This document shows, one piece after another, positions 24,610-28,950 of a stretch of 64,000 bases of DNA. Each line of letters starts with the position of its first letter. Within the stretch, counting starts at the first letter, position 1. Origin of the DNA: Nitrosopumilus sp. (GTDB lineage: Archaea; Thermoproteota; Nitrososphaeria; Nitrososphaerales; Nitrosopumilaceae); assembly GCA_029862745.1 (NCBI GenBank), contig JAOTWS010000008.1, positions 1 through 64,000 of the forward strand, given 5' to 3'. The translations under genes and the position numbers were made by a program. A model generated the notes under the pieces. The model was not told the DNA's origin. It worked only from the letters and a program-made list of their open reading frames with translations, and did not search any database.

Positions 24610-25049
24610 GAATGTTTCGATGTTATAAAATCAATAACTCATTCAATATTTGTTTAGATTAGAAAGTGCACGTAACAACCAATTCAGTTCTACAAAACAT
24701 CAAGACTAGGAATGACAGCACAAATGCTTTACTGATTTGAACAGAAATATTCTATAATCATAAATTTCAACATTCACACAAGCAAGAAATTGATGTGATT
24801 TCTTTTTTCTAGATTTATTGTAGTATTGCAGATTTTTCCATCTATATCTGAATTCCTCTAGAATGTGAAACATCAGAAACTTCTACCCAGTAGAATAGTG
24901 GTAGATTTTTTCTAGTTGAAAAATGTCATGTGAGGCAATAAAAAATTGTAAAAAGGTTTTCAAAACTTAAGGCCAGAAACAAGGGTATTCTAGTGACAGT
25001 TTTGCTCTGATTCCAATGCAGTGAAGCCAACTTTGTTCTCAGTATCAGT
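24610..25049. other. AT-rich spacer of about 440 bp holding a repeat copy
   Basis: Nothing coded was found from 24610 to about 24960. The last part carries the first copy of a 33-bp direct repeat (24967-24999) and looks less AT-rich than its surroundings. Confidence 0.4.
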
Positions 25050-25082
25050 TTAAGGCCTGAAACTATTGTAATCAGGCGACAG
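24967..25082. repeat. Pair of 33-bp direct repeats, 83 bp apart
   Basis: Copies at 24967-24999 and 25050-25082 share ttaaggcc-gaaac at one end and gacag at the other, with the middle 13 bp diverged. Read on the minus strand each encodes CTG-TC plus about nine codons and ends at the same TAA (LSPDYNSFRP and LSLEYPCFWP), suggesting a duplicated gene end. Confidence 0.6.
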
Positions 25083-25094
25083 CCAGCCGTTCAT
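25050..25094 (-). CDS. Possible 14-codon leaderless mini-ORF
   Basis: ATG at 25094, TAA at 25050; product MNGWLSPDYNSFRP. The ATG lies about 20-25 bp after a TATA box (25112-25120), the distance seen in leaderless archaeal transcripts and the same as for the operon at 26613. It could be a leader peptide, a real micropeptide, or the 5' remains of a longer gene. Confidence 0.3.
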   Translation of the reverse strand: MNGWLSPDYNSFRP

Positions 25095-25111: not shown

Positions 25112-25149
25112 GATATTTAACTAGTGGTAAATAATAATTCTGGTGGTAA
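25112..25149 (-). promoter_or_regulatory. Promoter with two CTAGTGGTAA-like sites
   Basis: On the minus strand, TATA-like sequence (25112-25120) is directly preceded by sites at 25121-25130 (ctagtggtaa) and 25140-25149 (ctggtggtaa), 19 bp apart. The same layout occurs at 26635-26689. Confidence 0.55.
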
Positions 25150-25294
25150 TAATGTTCACCATAAATTAGTTTTTAAAAAAAATTAGTAAAGATTATTTCT
25201 TAAAAGTTATCAAGTTTTGAAATCTATTCTTTTTTTAACAAATCATTGCTAATTTTCAAAATATTATTGATAATTTAAATCACTTTTGTAATCA

Positions 25295-25393
25295 CTACTG
25301 GATTAATTGAAAAGAACCCCCTGTCACTCTATCTCGAATGTCTTTTGCAACCAACCCGAATGGGATTCAGGCTTGTTTGTTACTGCTATCCAT
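25295..25393 (-). pseudogene. Tiny gene fossil with a TGA stop
   Basis: A 33-codon frame from ATG to TAG with a TGA at the ninth codon, followed by IPFGLVAKDIRDRVTGGSFQ, which reads as normal protein. GGA-to-TGA would explain the stop. Not recognised. Confidence 0.4.
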
Positions 25394-25420
25394 ATTTTAC
25401 TATAAAGATAACCTGTCCAA

Positions 25421-25440
25421 CTAGTGCTAATTTTAAATAT
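25421..25440 (+). promoter_or_regulatory. Promoter with single CTAGTGCTAA site
   Basis: A ctagtgctaa element at 25421-25430 directly precedes the TATA box (25431-25440, ttttaaatat), about 45 bp before the gene at 25485. It is a third occurrence of the shared element in 1.3 kb. Confidence 0.45.
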
Positions 25441-25484
25441 GAAACAAAAGAGTTCTATTTTACCTATACTGACGTTATAACAAC

Positions 25485-25751
25485 ATGAGACAAATTTTTG
25501 TAATACTTGCAGTTGGAGTACCGCTGTTATTTGCAGCGTTGTTTATAGTAAACGGAATTATCTCAGAGACCTTCCCAATGTTTATAGAAACACCATTTGA
25601 TGAGTCACAGAATTTACAACAAACATACCAAGCAGGATTAAATCACTGTGAAAACAATTATGGAAAGTCTGATGCATTAGATAAGAAAAACAGGTATGAG
25701 GAATGTGTTGATTTGGTTGAAAAATGGTATGCTGAAAATATTGAAAAATAA
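25485..25751 (+). CDS. Small membrane-anchored or secreted protein, 88 aa
   Basis: ATG start, one N-terminal hydrophobic helix (residues 4-28), then a helical, hydrophilic domain with two Cys (NHCENNYGKSD and YEECVDLVEKW) that could form a disulfide. Not recognised. A clear TATA box lies about 45 bp upstream with an adjacent CTAGTGCTAA element. Confidence 0.7.
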   Translation: MRQIFVILAVGVPLLFAALFIVNGIISETFPMFIETPFDESQNLQQTYQAGLNHCENNYGKSDALDKKNRYEECVDLVEKWYAENIEK

Positions 25752-26048
25752 TAGAACATCAAATGAATTTCCCATTGTACCTGTAGTTGATTATTTTATG
25801 GAACGTATTGTGTGATGCGATTACATATATGGATGATAATAAAGCACAGATGAAATTTCTTATTGCTATCAATTCGTTTTGATTGTCAATAATAAGTGAG
25901 GTTTCAAACACGACGTAAAAGTTGTCAAAGAGTCAGAATACGAAGGTTAACTATTATCTTGTAAGATTTGTTTTTTGCAGCAGAGTATACATACTACCGA
26001 GATATTTCTATCTGTGATTCATTGTATGACATATCTGCTAACCCATTC

Positions 26049-26426
26049 TTAGAAAACGTCACTGAGTTTTTTCAGTTTTCTCAAGTCAGTTATTTCAATA
26101 CTATTACTTAGCGTTACAATCTTTGCAAGTTTTGGATTTGCCTTCTCACCGAGCTTGAGCACAGGTTCTCCATGCAATCTTATTTCAAGTGTAATATTTT
26201 GCTGTTTTAGATTTTTTGCAAGATCCTTTGCTTCTGATAATTGTTTTATCAGACCAGGTCTTTTTTCAATCTCAATTGGAATGTCAATGATGTCGATAAT
26301 TCGAGAGTTGCCTTCGGCAAGAAAGGTAATTGATGGGGCACCATCACATGCAACCTTTAGACTTCCACTTTGTATAAAAGATAAAAAATTGGCGGGAATA
26401 TCAAAATCTTTCATTTTCATCCACAC
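26049..26426 (-). CDS. Hypothetical protein, second gene of a pair
   Basis: 125 residues from the GTG at 26426 (an ATG two codons later is the alternative). The upstream gene ends at 26428, so the two are translationally coupled. Layout: an N-terminal helix (IPANFLSFIQSGSLKVA), strands around 30-50 (SITFLAEGN and IIDIPIEIE), a helix with SEAKDLAKNLKQQ, then TLEIRLHGEPVLKLGEKANP. No Cys and no membrane segment. Not recognised. It is controlled by the operator-bearing promoter at 26635-26689. Confidence 0.7.
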   Translation of the reverse strand: MWMKMKDFDIPANFLSFIQSGSLKVACDGAPSITFLAEGNSRIIDIIDIPIEIEKRPGLIKQLSEAKDLAKNLKQQNITLEIRLHGEPVLKLGEKANPKLAKIVTLSNSIEITDLRKLKKLSDVF

Positions 26427-26427
26427 C

Positions 26428-26613
26428 TCATTTTGCTGTAATAGTCAGTTTTCCAGTTAAGGAAACCGTGCCTGTAGGGATTGTCTTGCCGTCTTTTTCG
26501 ATCTTACCTTGCATCTCAAGATTTTCAAAATCATAAGTGATTGAGGCATGCTTTTGCGTAAGCTTGTCAAAAATTTCGGCCAGTAAATTTGCCCATTCTT
26601 GTTCTTCTGCCAT
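26428..26613 (-). CDS. Hypothetical small protein, first gene of a pair
   Basis: The ATG at 26613 (MAEEQEWANLLAEIFD) gives 61 residues and lies about 22 bp from a TATA box, so the transcript is leaderless. An N-terminal helix is followed by two to three strands (ITYDFENLEMQGKI and VSLTGKLTITAK). It probably forms a complex with the product of the coupled downstream gene. Not recognised. Confidence 0.7.
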   Translation of the reverse strand: MAEEQEWANLLAEIFDKLTQKHASITYDFENLEMQGKIEKDGKTIPTGTVSLTGKLTITAK

Positions 26614-26634
26614 GATTATTTTAATCAATTTATG

Positions 26635-26689
26635 GTATTTAACCTAGGGGTAAGATTAATTCTAGTGGTAAGATTAATTCTAGTGCCAA
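26635..26689 (-). promoter_or_regulatory. Promoter with three 18-bp-spaced CTAGTGGTAA-like sites
   Basis: On the minus strand, TATA (about 26635-26642) is directly preceded by sites at 26644-26653 (ctaggggtaa), 26662-26671 (ctagtggtaa) and 26680-26689 (ctagtgccaa). The first two lie in an almost perfect 18-bp tandem repeat. Regular spacing next to TATA suggests a multimeric regulator. Confidence 0.65.
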
Positions 26690-27534: not shown

Positions 27535-28950
27535 ATGAAAAAATATCAAAAATCTGTATTTTTATTTAGACGGGATCTGAGAGTAGTTGACAATACTGGT
27601 TTGATTGAGGCTAGTAGGTCCTCTAACCAAACAATTCCCTGTTTTATCCTTGATCCAAAATTATTGAAAAAATCTAATCCAAAATTTAGCAAGTTCAGAC
27701 TTCAGTTTATTCGAGAATGCCTGGTGGATCTTGATAAACAATTACAAAACAACGAGTCATACTTGCATATTCTTTCAGGGAAACCAGAAAAAATTATTGA
27801 AAATCTAATTAATCTGATAAAAATTGATGCGATTTTTGTAAATACTGATTACACGCAATTTAGTAAAAAGAGAGACAGAGATATTAGAAAAGTTTGCAGC
27901 AAACACAAGGTTGATTTTATTTCAACAGACGACCTACTCTTGCATGATGTAGATGAGATCAAGACTCTAAAAGGAGAGCCATACAAGGTTTTCACATCAT
28001 ATTTCTCAACTTCAAGAGGATTATCAGTAAGAAAACCACAAAACCATGATTTTTCTAATCTTTCAAATCAAGAGATAAAATTAGAGATTTCAAGTGGCAA
28101 CCTAGAAAGTCATATGGAAAAAAATAATCACAAAGCCTCATTCAGAGGAGGAAGAGAATCATGCGTGTCATTGTTGAATAATCTAAAAAATCTAAAAAAT
28201 TACGACGTTGATCGAAATTATCCTGCAATAAACGGCACCTCGATGTTATCTGCTCATAATAGATTTGGAACCTGCTCCATACGGGAATTTTATCATAGAA
28301 TTTTACAGGATTTGGGGTCAACCCATACACTAATTGCACAACTTCATTGGAGGGATTTTTTCACGTATATAATGCATCATTATCCGCATAGTTTTTCAGA
28401 TGAATTTAACAAAAAATACCAAAAAATTCCATGGAGTAGAAACAAAAGGGCATTTAGAAAATGGTGTGAAGGCAAAACTGGTTTCCCAATCGTAGATGCT
28501 GGAATGAGGGAACTGAACGAAACCGGATTTATGCACAATAGAGTGAGAATGATTGTGGCATCCTTTCTCACAAAAGATCTGCATATTGACTGGAGATGGG
28601 GCGAGCAGTACTTTGCATCAAAACTGATTGATTACGATCCAAGTGTAAATATCGGGAATTGGCAATGGGCAGCATCCACTGGATGCGATGCCCAACCATG
28701 GTTTAGGATATTCAATCCATGGCTTCAGCAACAAAAATTTGATCCGGATTGCATCTACATAAAGAGAGAGATTCCAGAACTAGAAAATATCTCATCTAAA
28801 GTTATTCACAGATTAGATACAAAATATCCTGAAAATATGCTGAATTATCCCAAACCTATGATAGACCACAAGTCTGAATCATCACACACCAAAGAAATTT
28901 TCAAAGAAATATCAAAAATAGATGAAAAGATCAATGGGATTGGAGAATAG
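27535..28950 (+). CDS. phr: DNA photolyase / cryptochrome, class I type
   Basis: 471 residues from ATG, the usual length. The N-terminal Rossmann domain (VFLFRRDLRVVDNTGL) binds an antenna chromophore. The C-terminal domain holds FAD-binding residues: WRDFFTYIMHHYP, GKTGFPIVDAGMREL, MHNRVRMIVASFLTKDL, and NIGNWQWAASTGCDAQPWFR. This is the pattern of CPD photolyases, which use light to repair UV dimers. An Asn-rich and His-rich signature typical of (6-4) enzymes is not seen. Together with uvrBAC at 56-63 kb it gives the cell two routes of UV repair, suiting a surface-water or light-exposed life. It stands alone. Confidence 0.92.
   Translation: MKKYQKSVFLFRRDLRVVDNTGLIEASRSSNQTIPCFILDPKLLKKSNPKFSKFRLQFIRECLVDLDKQLQNNESYLHILSGKPEKIIENLINLIKIDAIFVNTDYTQFSKKRDRDIRKVCSKHKVDFISTDDLLLHDVDEIKTLKGEPYKVFTSYFSTSRGLSVRKPQNHDFSNLSNQEIKLEISSGNLESHMEKNNHKASFRGGRESCVSLLNNLKNLKNYDVDRNYPAINGTSMLSAHNRFGTCSIREFYHRILQDLGSTHTLIAQLHWRDFFTYIMHHYPHSFSDEFNKKYQKIPWSRNKRAFRKWCEGKTGFPIVDAGMRELNETGFMHNRVRMIVASFLTKDLHIDWRWGEQYFASKLIDYDPSVNIGNWQWAASTGCDAQPWFRIFNPWLQQQKFDPDCIYIKREIPELENISSKVIHRLDTKYPENMLNYPKPMIDHKSESSHTKEIFKEISKIDEKINGIGE

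Follow-up and report, generated by a model that had tools for sequence, protein, structure and literature searches.

Tandem repeats adjoining TATA boxes in a Nitrosopumilus genome as probable operators of a CarH-like, putatively light-responsive regulator

The window, that is, the whole stretch of 64,000 nucleotides of Nitrosopumilus sp. DNA analysed here, contains a recurring half-site next to three TATA boxes. The relevant features are listed by position in the window.

24953..25086, minus strand: structured non-coding RNA, a divergent member of its family, with UGUC/UCUUAA internal loops in three hairpins
25114..25120, minus strand: TATA box TTAAATA of the RNA promoter
25121..25130, minus strand: proximal half-site TTACCACTAG of the RNA promoter, exact match
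25140..25149, minus strand: distal half-site TTACCACCAG of the RNA promoter, 1 mismatch
25421..25430, opposite orientation: single half-site, CTAGTGCTAA on the plus strand, directly upstream of a TATA box TTTTAAATA (25431-25439)
25485..25751, plus strand: 88-aa gene behind the single half-site, of narrow distribution (3 of 61 genomes)
26049..26426, minus strand: operon gene B, encoding 125 aa, assigned to no family
26428..26613, minus strand: operon gene A, encoding 61 aa (MAEEQEWANLL...), assigned to no family
26636..26642, minus strand: TATA box TTAAATA of the operon, ~26 bp before the ATG, probably leaderless
26644..26653, minus strand: proximal half-site TTACCCCTAG of the triple operator, abutting the TATA box, 1 mismatch
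26662..26671, minus strand: middle half-site TTACCACTAG of the triple operator, exact match
26680..26689, minus strand: distal half-site TTGGCACTAG of the triple operator, 2 mismatches
27535..28950, plus strand: DNA photolyase gene, ~0.9 kb from the operon, with no operator of its own

The site positions and the spacing of 18-19 bp given in a preliminary description of this DNA were reproduced: the sites at 25121 and 26662 are exact, those at 25140, 25421 and 26644 have one mismatch, and that at 26680 has two. The arrays had also been placed upstream of TATA boxes, which for two of them is correct on the minus strand only, with transcription running leftwards. Both arrays end in a minus-strand TTAAATA box (26642-26636 and 25120-25114, respectively). 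Since both lie upstream of TATA on this strand only, the motif is better written TTANCACTAG, which in the regulated orientation points toward the TATA box. On the minus strand the triple array reads TTGGCACTAG-N8-TTACCACTAG-N8-TTACCCCTAG-G-TTAAATA...ATG(26613), and the array of the RNA promoter TTACCACCAG-N9-TTACCACTAG-TTAAATA. Leaderless transcription, proposed for two of the three cases, is plausible for the gene at 26613 with its nearby TATA box; the pair at 25121 belongs to the minus-strand RNA and not to gene 25485, which would have a leader of ~20 nt. A 17-mer at the single half-site 25421 (CTAGTGCTAATTTTAAA) is identical upstream of the orthologue in genome G016 (locus L259).

Counting single motifs was uninformative, as loose matches are too common: with two mismatches the window holds 73 against 43.5 expected, a mild enrichment. 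Statements on the whole genome are based on pattern searches and retrieved stretches. Pairs of TTANCACTAG with up to 3 mismatches occur 9 times at 18 bp and 9 times at 19 bp, compared to 1 and 6 in a reversed control, and a 20-bp period shows no enrichment (1 pair versus 3 in the reversed-pattern control). Pairs with no more than one mismatch are without exception non-coding, and none lies in an ORF longer than 61 aa, the 61-aa ORF that spans the 26644 array being spurious; several pairs with 2-3 mismatches are found inside real, longer ORFs. Random occurrence of the motif in coding regions had been set beforehand as a check, which, run on the tandem form, gave no refutation. This 1.8-Mb Nitrosopumilus-like genome has tandem pairs in front of about ten promoters, good pairs being found at C1:113193, C1:113325, C1:237351, C1:242134, C1:242221, C1:244504, C5:91593, C8:25121 and C8:26644. 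The proposal of a shared tandem operator, adjoining TATA boxes, for an oligomeric regulator that controls gene 26613 and others is supported by these data.

A candidate regulator is encoded at G000:C1:242279-243130, a B12-binding protein of 284 aa (PF02607 and PF02310). Motif pairs in 61 relatives cluster at this gene, and it is the target retained in every lineage examined. Of 62 regions upstream of regulator genes, 49 contain a pair (at most 3 mismatches), always 19 bp apart and 27-30 nt from the ATG, as compared to 1 of 1240 in a shuffle control; the sequences are related and do not represent 49 independent events. Within these regions the spacers vary freely and the half-sites are kept. 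In other families of the order, where protein identity is ~30%, regulator genes are likewise preceded by pairs (L239, L241, L243, L244, L245); named relatives are Nitrosopumilus, Nitrosarchaeum, Cenarchaeum and Nitrososphaeraceae. Over 61 genomes, motif and regulator co-occur strongly (p = 2e-6), a relation that is marginal within the genus (p = 0.03-0.06) and confounded by descent. The regulator's own proximal half-site, unlike that of target promoters, is usually degenerate (TTAGCAYYAG; L141-L195), which is perhaps a sign of tuned autoregulation. In L112 and L165 a TFB gene with a weak operator-like pair upstream lies near the regulator (at 10.0 kb of L112 and 9.6 kb of L165).

The sensor domain of the protein is of the CarH type. 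CarH proteins are characterized by the motifs Wx9EH and, for cobalamin, D/ExHx2G/P x41 SxT/V x22-27 GG (PMC9304148), and the regulator matches both position for position (W128x9E138H139; E173xH175xxG178, x41, S220xT222, x25, G248G249). It also has all four elements of the light-response signature (G125xxW128, E138H139, G172xxH175, G197xxxP201). Among 74 regulator proteins, Wx9EH and GxxWx9EH are found in all 74, the strict classic B12 motif in 67, and a complete GxxxP element in just 49. The best NCBIfam match is CarH (NF052513) with 60.4 bits, below the curated cut-off of 400. A structural model with good local confidence (pLDDT 84.5) has Thermus CarH (E = 2e-12) and a photocobilin as its closest solved folds; with a low pTM of 0.46, its domain arrangement is tentative.

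The likeness to the bacterial CarH/LitR systems (Thermus, Bacillus, Myxococcales) comprises the four-helix bundle with GxxWx9EH, the Rossmann cobalamin motif, direct-repeat operators overlapping core-promoter elements, autoregulation, and light-related neighbours. The differences are an archaeal host with TATA/TFB promoters, a predicted beta-sheet N-terminus in which Pfam detects none of the MerR winged helix with RxWERRY of CarH/LitR, and the operator, which for CarH is nnnnTnnACAn at 11 bp and here a half-site TTRGCACTA at 18-19 bp, abutting the promoter. Lacking the MerR head and the 11-bp operator repeats, and scoring below the NCBIfam cut-off, the protein is called CarH-like rather than CarH. 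Photocobilins, of which 8j2w and 8j2x are the solved structures that match best by sequence, and other CBD proteins with the signature (PMC11796333) likewise combine a CarH-type light signature with the absence of a MerR head; unlike photocobilins, the archaeal regulator has no biliverdin-domain match and is associated with genome-wide DNA operators. A further sequence match without a MerR domain is AerR (7te2), a purple-bacterial cobalamin-binding antirepressor. AerR acts through a partner repressor, whereas the archaeal regulator has a dedicated, conserved N-terminal domain and matching operators.

Our interpretation is that the repeats are probably tandem direct-repeat operators of an archaeal CarH-like, light-responsive regulator. 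Tandem half-sites, fixed spacing, TATA contact, an autoregulatory position and a CarH-type cobalamin domain are established at the level of sequence, from which we infer light as the signal, the cofactor and the direction of control. The N-terminal beta-sheet domain would read TTRGCACTA, and the C-terminal domain, given its signature, would hold AdoCbl. In the dark, an AdoCbl-bound oligomer would occupy half-sites 18-19 bp apart and keep TFB off the BRE, such that initiation is blocked; such a block is suggested by the proximal half-site, which abuts TATA and covers the TFB-BRE contact. Green or blue light would, by analogy with CarH, break the Co-C bond and release the genes. Besides its own gene, the regulator is predicted to control the two-gene operon at 26613 and the three-hairpin RNA, together with genes for an NmrA/SDR enzyme, for an FAD amine-oxidase-like protein and for secreted proteins; for one genus we propose a regulator-photolyase operon as a further target.

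The alternative with the most weight concerns the direction of control only, and hence overlaps with this interpretation: bound upstream of TATA, the protein may recruit TFB/TBP as an activator that light turns on or off. Archaeal activators usually sit upstream of TATA, as these sites do, and the operators, two or three half-sites long, reach outward from the box. Activation is a serious possibility, which we nevertheless rank as the less likely direction, given a proximal half-site that covers the BRE region and given that CarH homologues repress from operators overlapping promoter elements (PMC9304148). Repression is therefore preferred.

A second alternative retains the B12 protein as regulator and replaces light by corrinoid supply, NO or redox as the signal. 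Ammonia-oxidising archaea make cobalamin, which they also supply to others, and produce NO, an interaction of NO and cobalamin under stress has been described (PMC7490402), and relatives of the regulator are found in soil and hot-spring type lineages. A signal of this kind nevertheless appears unlikely to us, since the light-response signature GxxW, EH, GxxH, GxxxP, as checked on exemplar proteins, marks AdoCbl photoreceptors (PMC11796333) and its GxxW/EH elements are invariant here, and since photolyase genes are neighbours. Photolyase genes occur in the examined flanks of 9 of 64 regulator loci; in L256 the gene starts 2 nt behind the regulator, and in the window a photolyase gene ~0.9 kb from the operon adds to the link with light. 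The operator was found upstream of none of the 9 photolyase genes, and the link to light is thus one of neighbourhood. Photolyases have been reported from epipelagic marine and low-salinity freshwater clades of ammonia-oxidising archaea (PMC9239080). Photoinhibition of ammonia oxidation is well documented (PMC9239080). The literature searched, with subscription journals and preprints outside its coverage, contained no paper with both CarH and Nitrosopumilus, no archaeal B12 photoreceptor, and no light-responsive regulator for ammonia-oxidising archaea.

A third alternative assigns the reading of the operators to another DNA-binding protein, with the gene of the B12 protein merely a target and its product a co-sensor. 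Such a division of labour would be in keeping with an N-terminus in which no known DNA-binding fold is recognised, and with the TFB genes near the regulator in L112 and L165. The N-terminus is predicted to form three antiparallel strands in a three-stranded beta-sheet (pLDDT 91), and comparison with solved structures (PDB) gave no significant match, only weak ones such as PC4, for which reason DNA binding by this domain is stated as a prediction. A micrarchaeal Fic/DOC protein (L206, 4023-5060) has the same N-terminus, ~42% identical over the first 45-52 residues, and its gene has inverted pairs TAGTGCTAA-N26-TTAGCACTA just before the start codon and across the gene end. Four exact TTAGCACTA 9-mers lie in 10.2 kb of 59% GC DNA around this gene, versus 0.003 expected. 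As the half-site is kept wherever the protein occurs, and as a protein of another phylum pairs the same N-terminus with the same half-site, we infer that the N-terminal domain reads TTRGCACTA. Given also the retention of the B12 gene as target, a separate reader is improbable. The combination of N-terminal domain and readable half-site suggests a new class of DNA-binding domain that occurs in more than one archaeal phylum, in Fic proteins as well as in regulators. In L248 and L249 (genome G403), short proteins reminiscent of transposase N-termini begin with a weak relative of the domain, hinting at an origin from mobile elements.

The preliminary description had proposed a small local regulon. 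For a local regulon under an unrelated repressor the three arrays inside 1.6 kb could be cited; with the same arrays elsewhere in the genome and in relatives this is very improbable, and the repeats are operators of a dispersed regulon, genome-wide and conserved across ammonia-oxidising archaea, with the probable regulator encoded outside the window. Repeats arising by chance, or an extended core-promoter element that has no regulator, would draw on an AT-rich genome rich in loose single matches, and are effectively dismissed by the fixed period, by half-sites conserved while spacers diverge, and by the restricted target set.

Taken more broadly, it appears fairly likely that in ammonia-oxidising archaea the cell's own B12 serves to sense light, by means of a CarH-type domain joined to a previously undescribed beta-sheet DNA-binding domain, with a regulon that includes a new RNA family and with photolyase nearby. 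If true, this would be the first archaeal B12 photoreceptor regulon and would offer a direct handle on photoinhibition of nitrification in organisms that are among the most abundant ocean microbes. With a sensor, an operator, a list of targets and an RNA predicted, the question of light becomes testable, and the regulator also suggests a ready-made light switch for archaeal genetics.

Among the predicted targets, the window operon is found in several arrangements. Orthologues of gene A lie behind the operator in 15 records; the orthologous operon is head-to-head with the B12-regulator gene in G006, G011, G017, G022, G023 and G028. The pair at C5:91593 belongs to a paralogous copy of the operon (gene B 82% identical), and the tandem operator is found at this paralogue as well as at the orthologues L123, L132 and L133. 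The pair at C1:242221 precedes the gene of the B12-binding protein, and that at C1:242134 faces the opposite way, toward an NmrA/SDR gene. A census of ~250 sites over all retrieved loci is headed by the B12 protein, with 60, and by a secreted protein containing PAWVKTNAGWWA repeats, with 55, followed by SDR enzymes (26, and 9 related), an FAD amine-oxidase-like protein that is phytoene-desaturase-like (18), a second secreted protein (17) and the window operon (15). A PPOX-type protein accounts for 6, and there are a few others; as the loci overlap, these figures count distinct upstream sequences, not species. After the regulator, the commonest target is a secreted protein that belongs to no known family and contains PAWVKTNAGWWADG repeats (L027 973-3321 and relatives); L027 has two neighbouring copies of it.

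The remaining target in the window is the RNA behind the 25121 pair. A protein-coding gene was considered at this position and rejected, since there is no conserved ORF and the conserved segment, present in other genomes, is an RNA. The aligned homologues share a fold of three hairpins, all of which contain a UGUC/UCUUAA internal loop; in an alignment of 8 sequences 97.5% of cells pair, and 7 pairs are changed on both sides versus a shuffle mean of 2.2, a signal that collapses once the partners are slid. A covariance model (R1) whose training set excludes the window copy recovers that copy by cmsearch (E = 2.7e-9), and the model detects further members of the RNA family, in 28 of 121 Nitrosopumilaceae genomes overall. 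Neither the window nor five homologous RNA loci gave a credible match to any Rfam 15 family. The window copy itself is divergent, with an unsupported middle hairpin and an unremarkable folding energy (z = -0.23). Perfect operators precede the RNA in other genera, namely TTAGCACTAG-N9-TTAGCACTAG-TTAAATA in L300 and L302 and a similar one in L304; at the copies in most members of the own genus the distal half-site alone is recognisable. Further copies of the family are G000:C4:149245-149383 (minus strand) and L282-L304. Next to the RNA, positions 24674-24808 of the window hold a second conserved non-coding element with up to 81% identity in G013, G016 and others. Single CUGUCACCA...GGUCUUAAG hairpin units without operator occur in other genera as well as, for one genome, within the genus (L305-L309); the lone hairpin is perhaps a protein-binding one.
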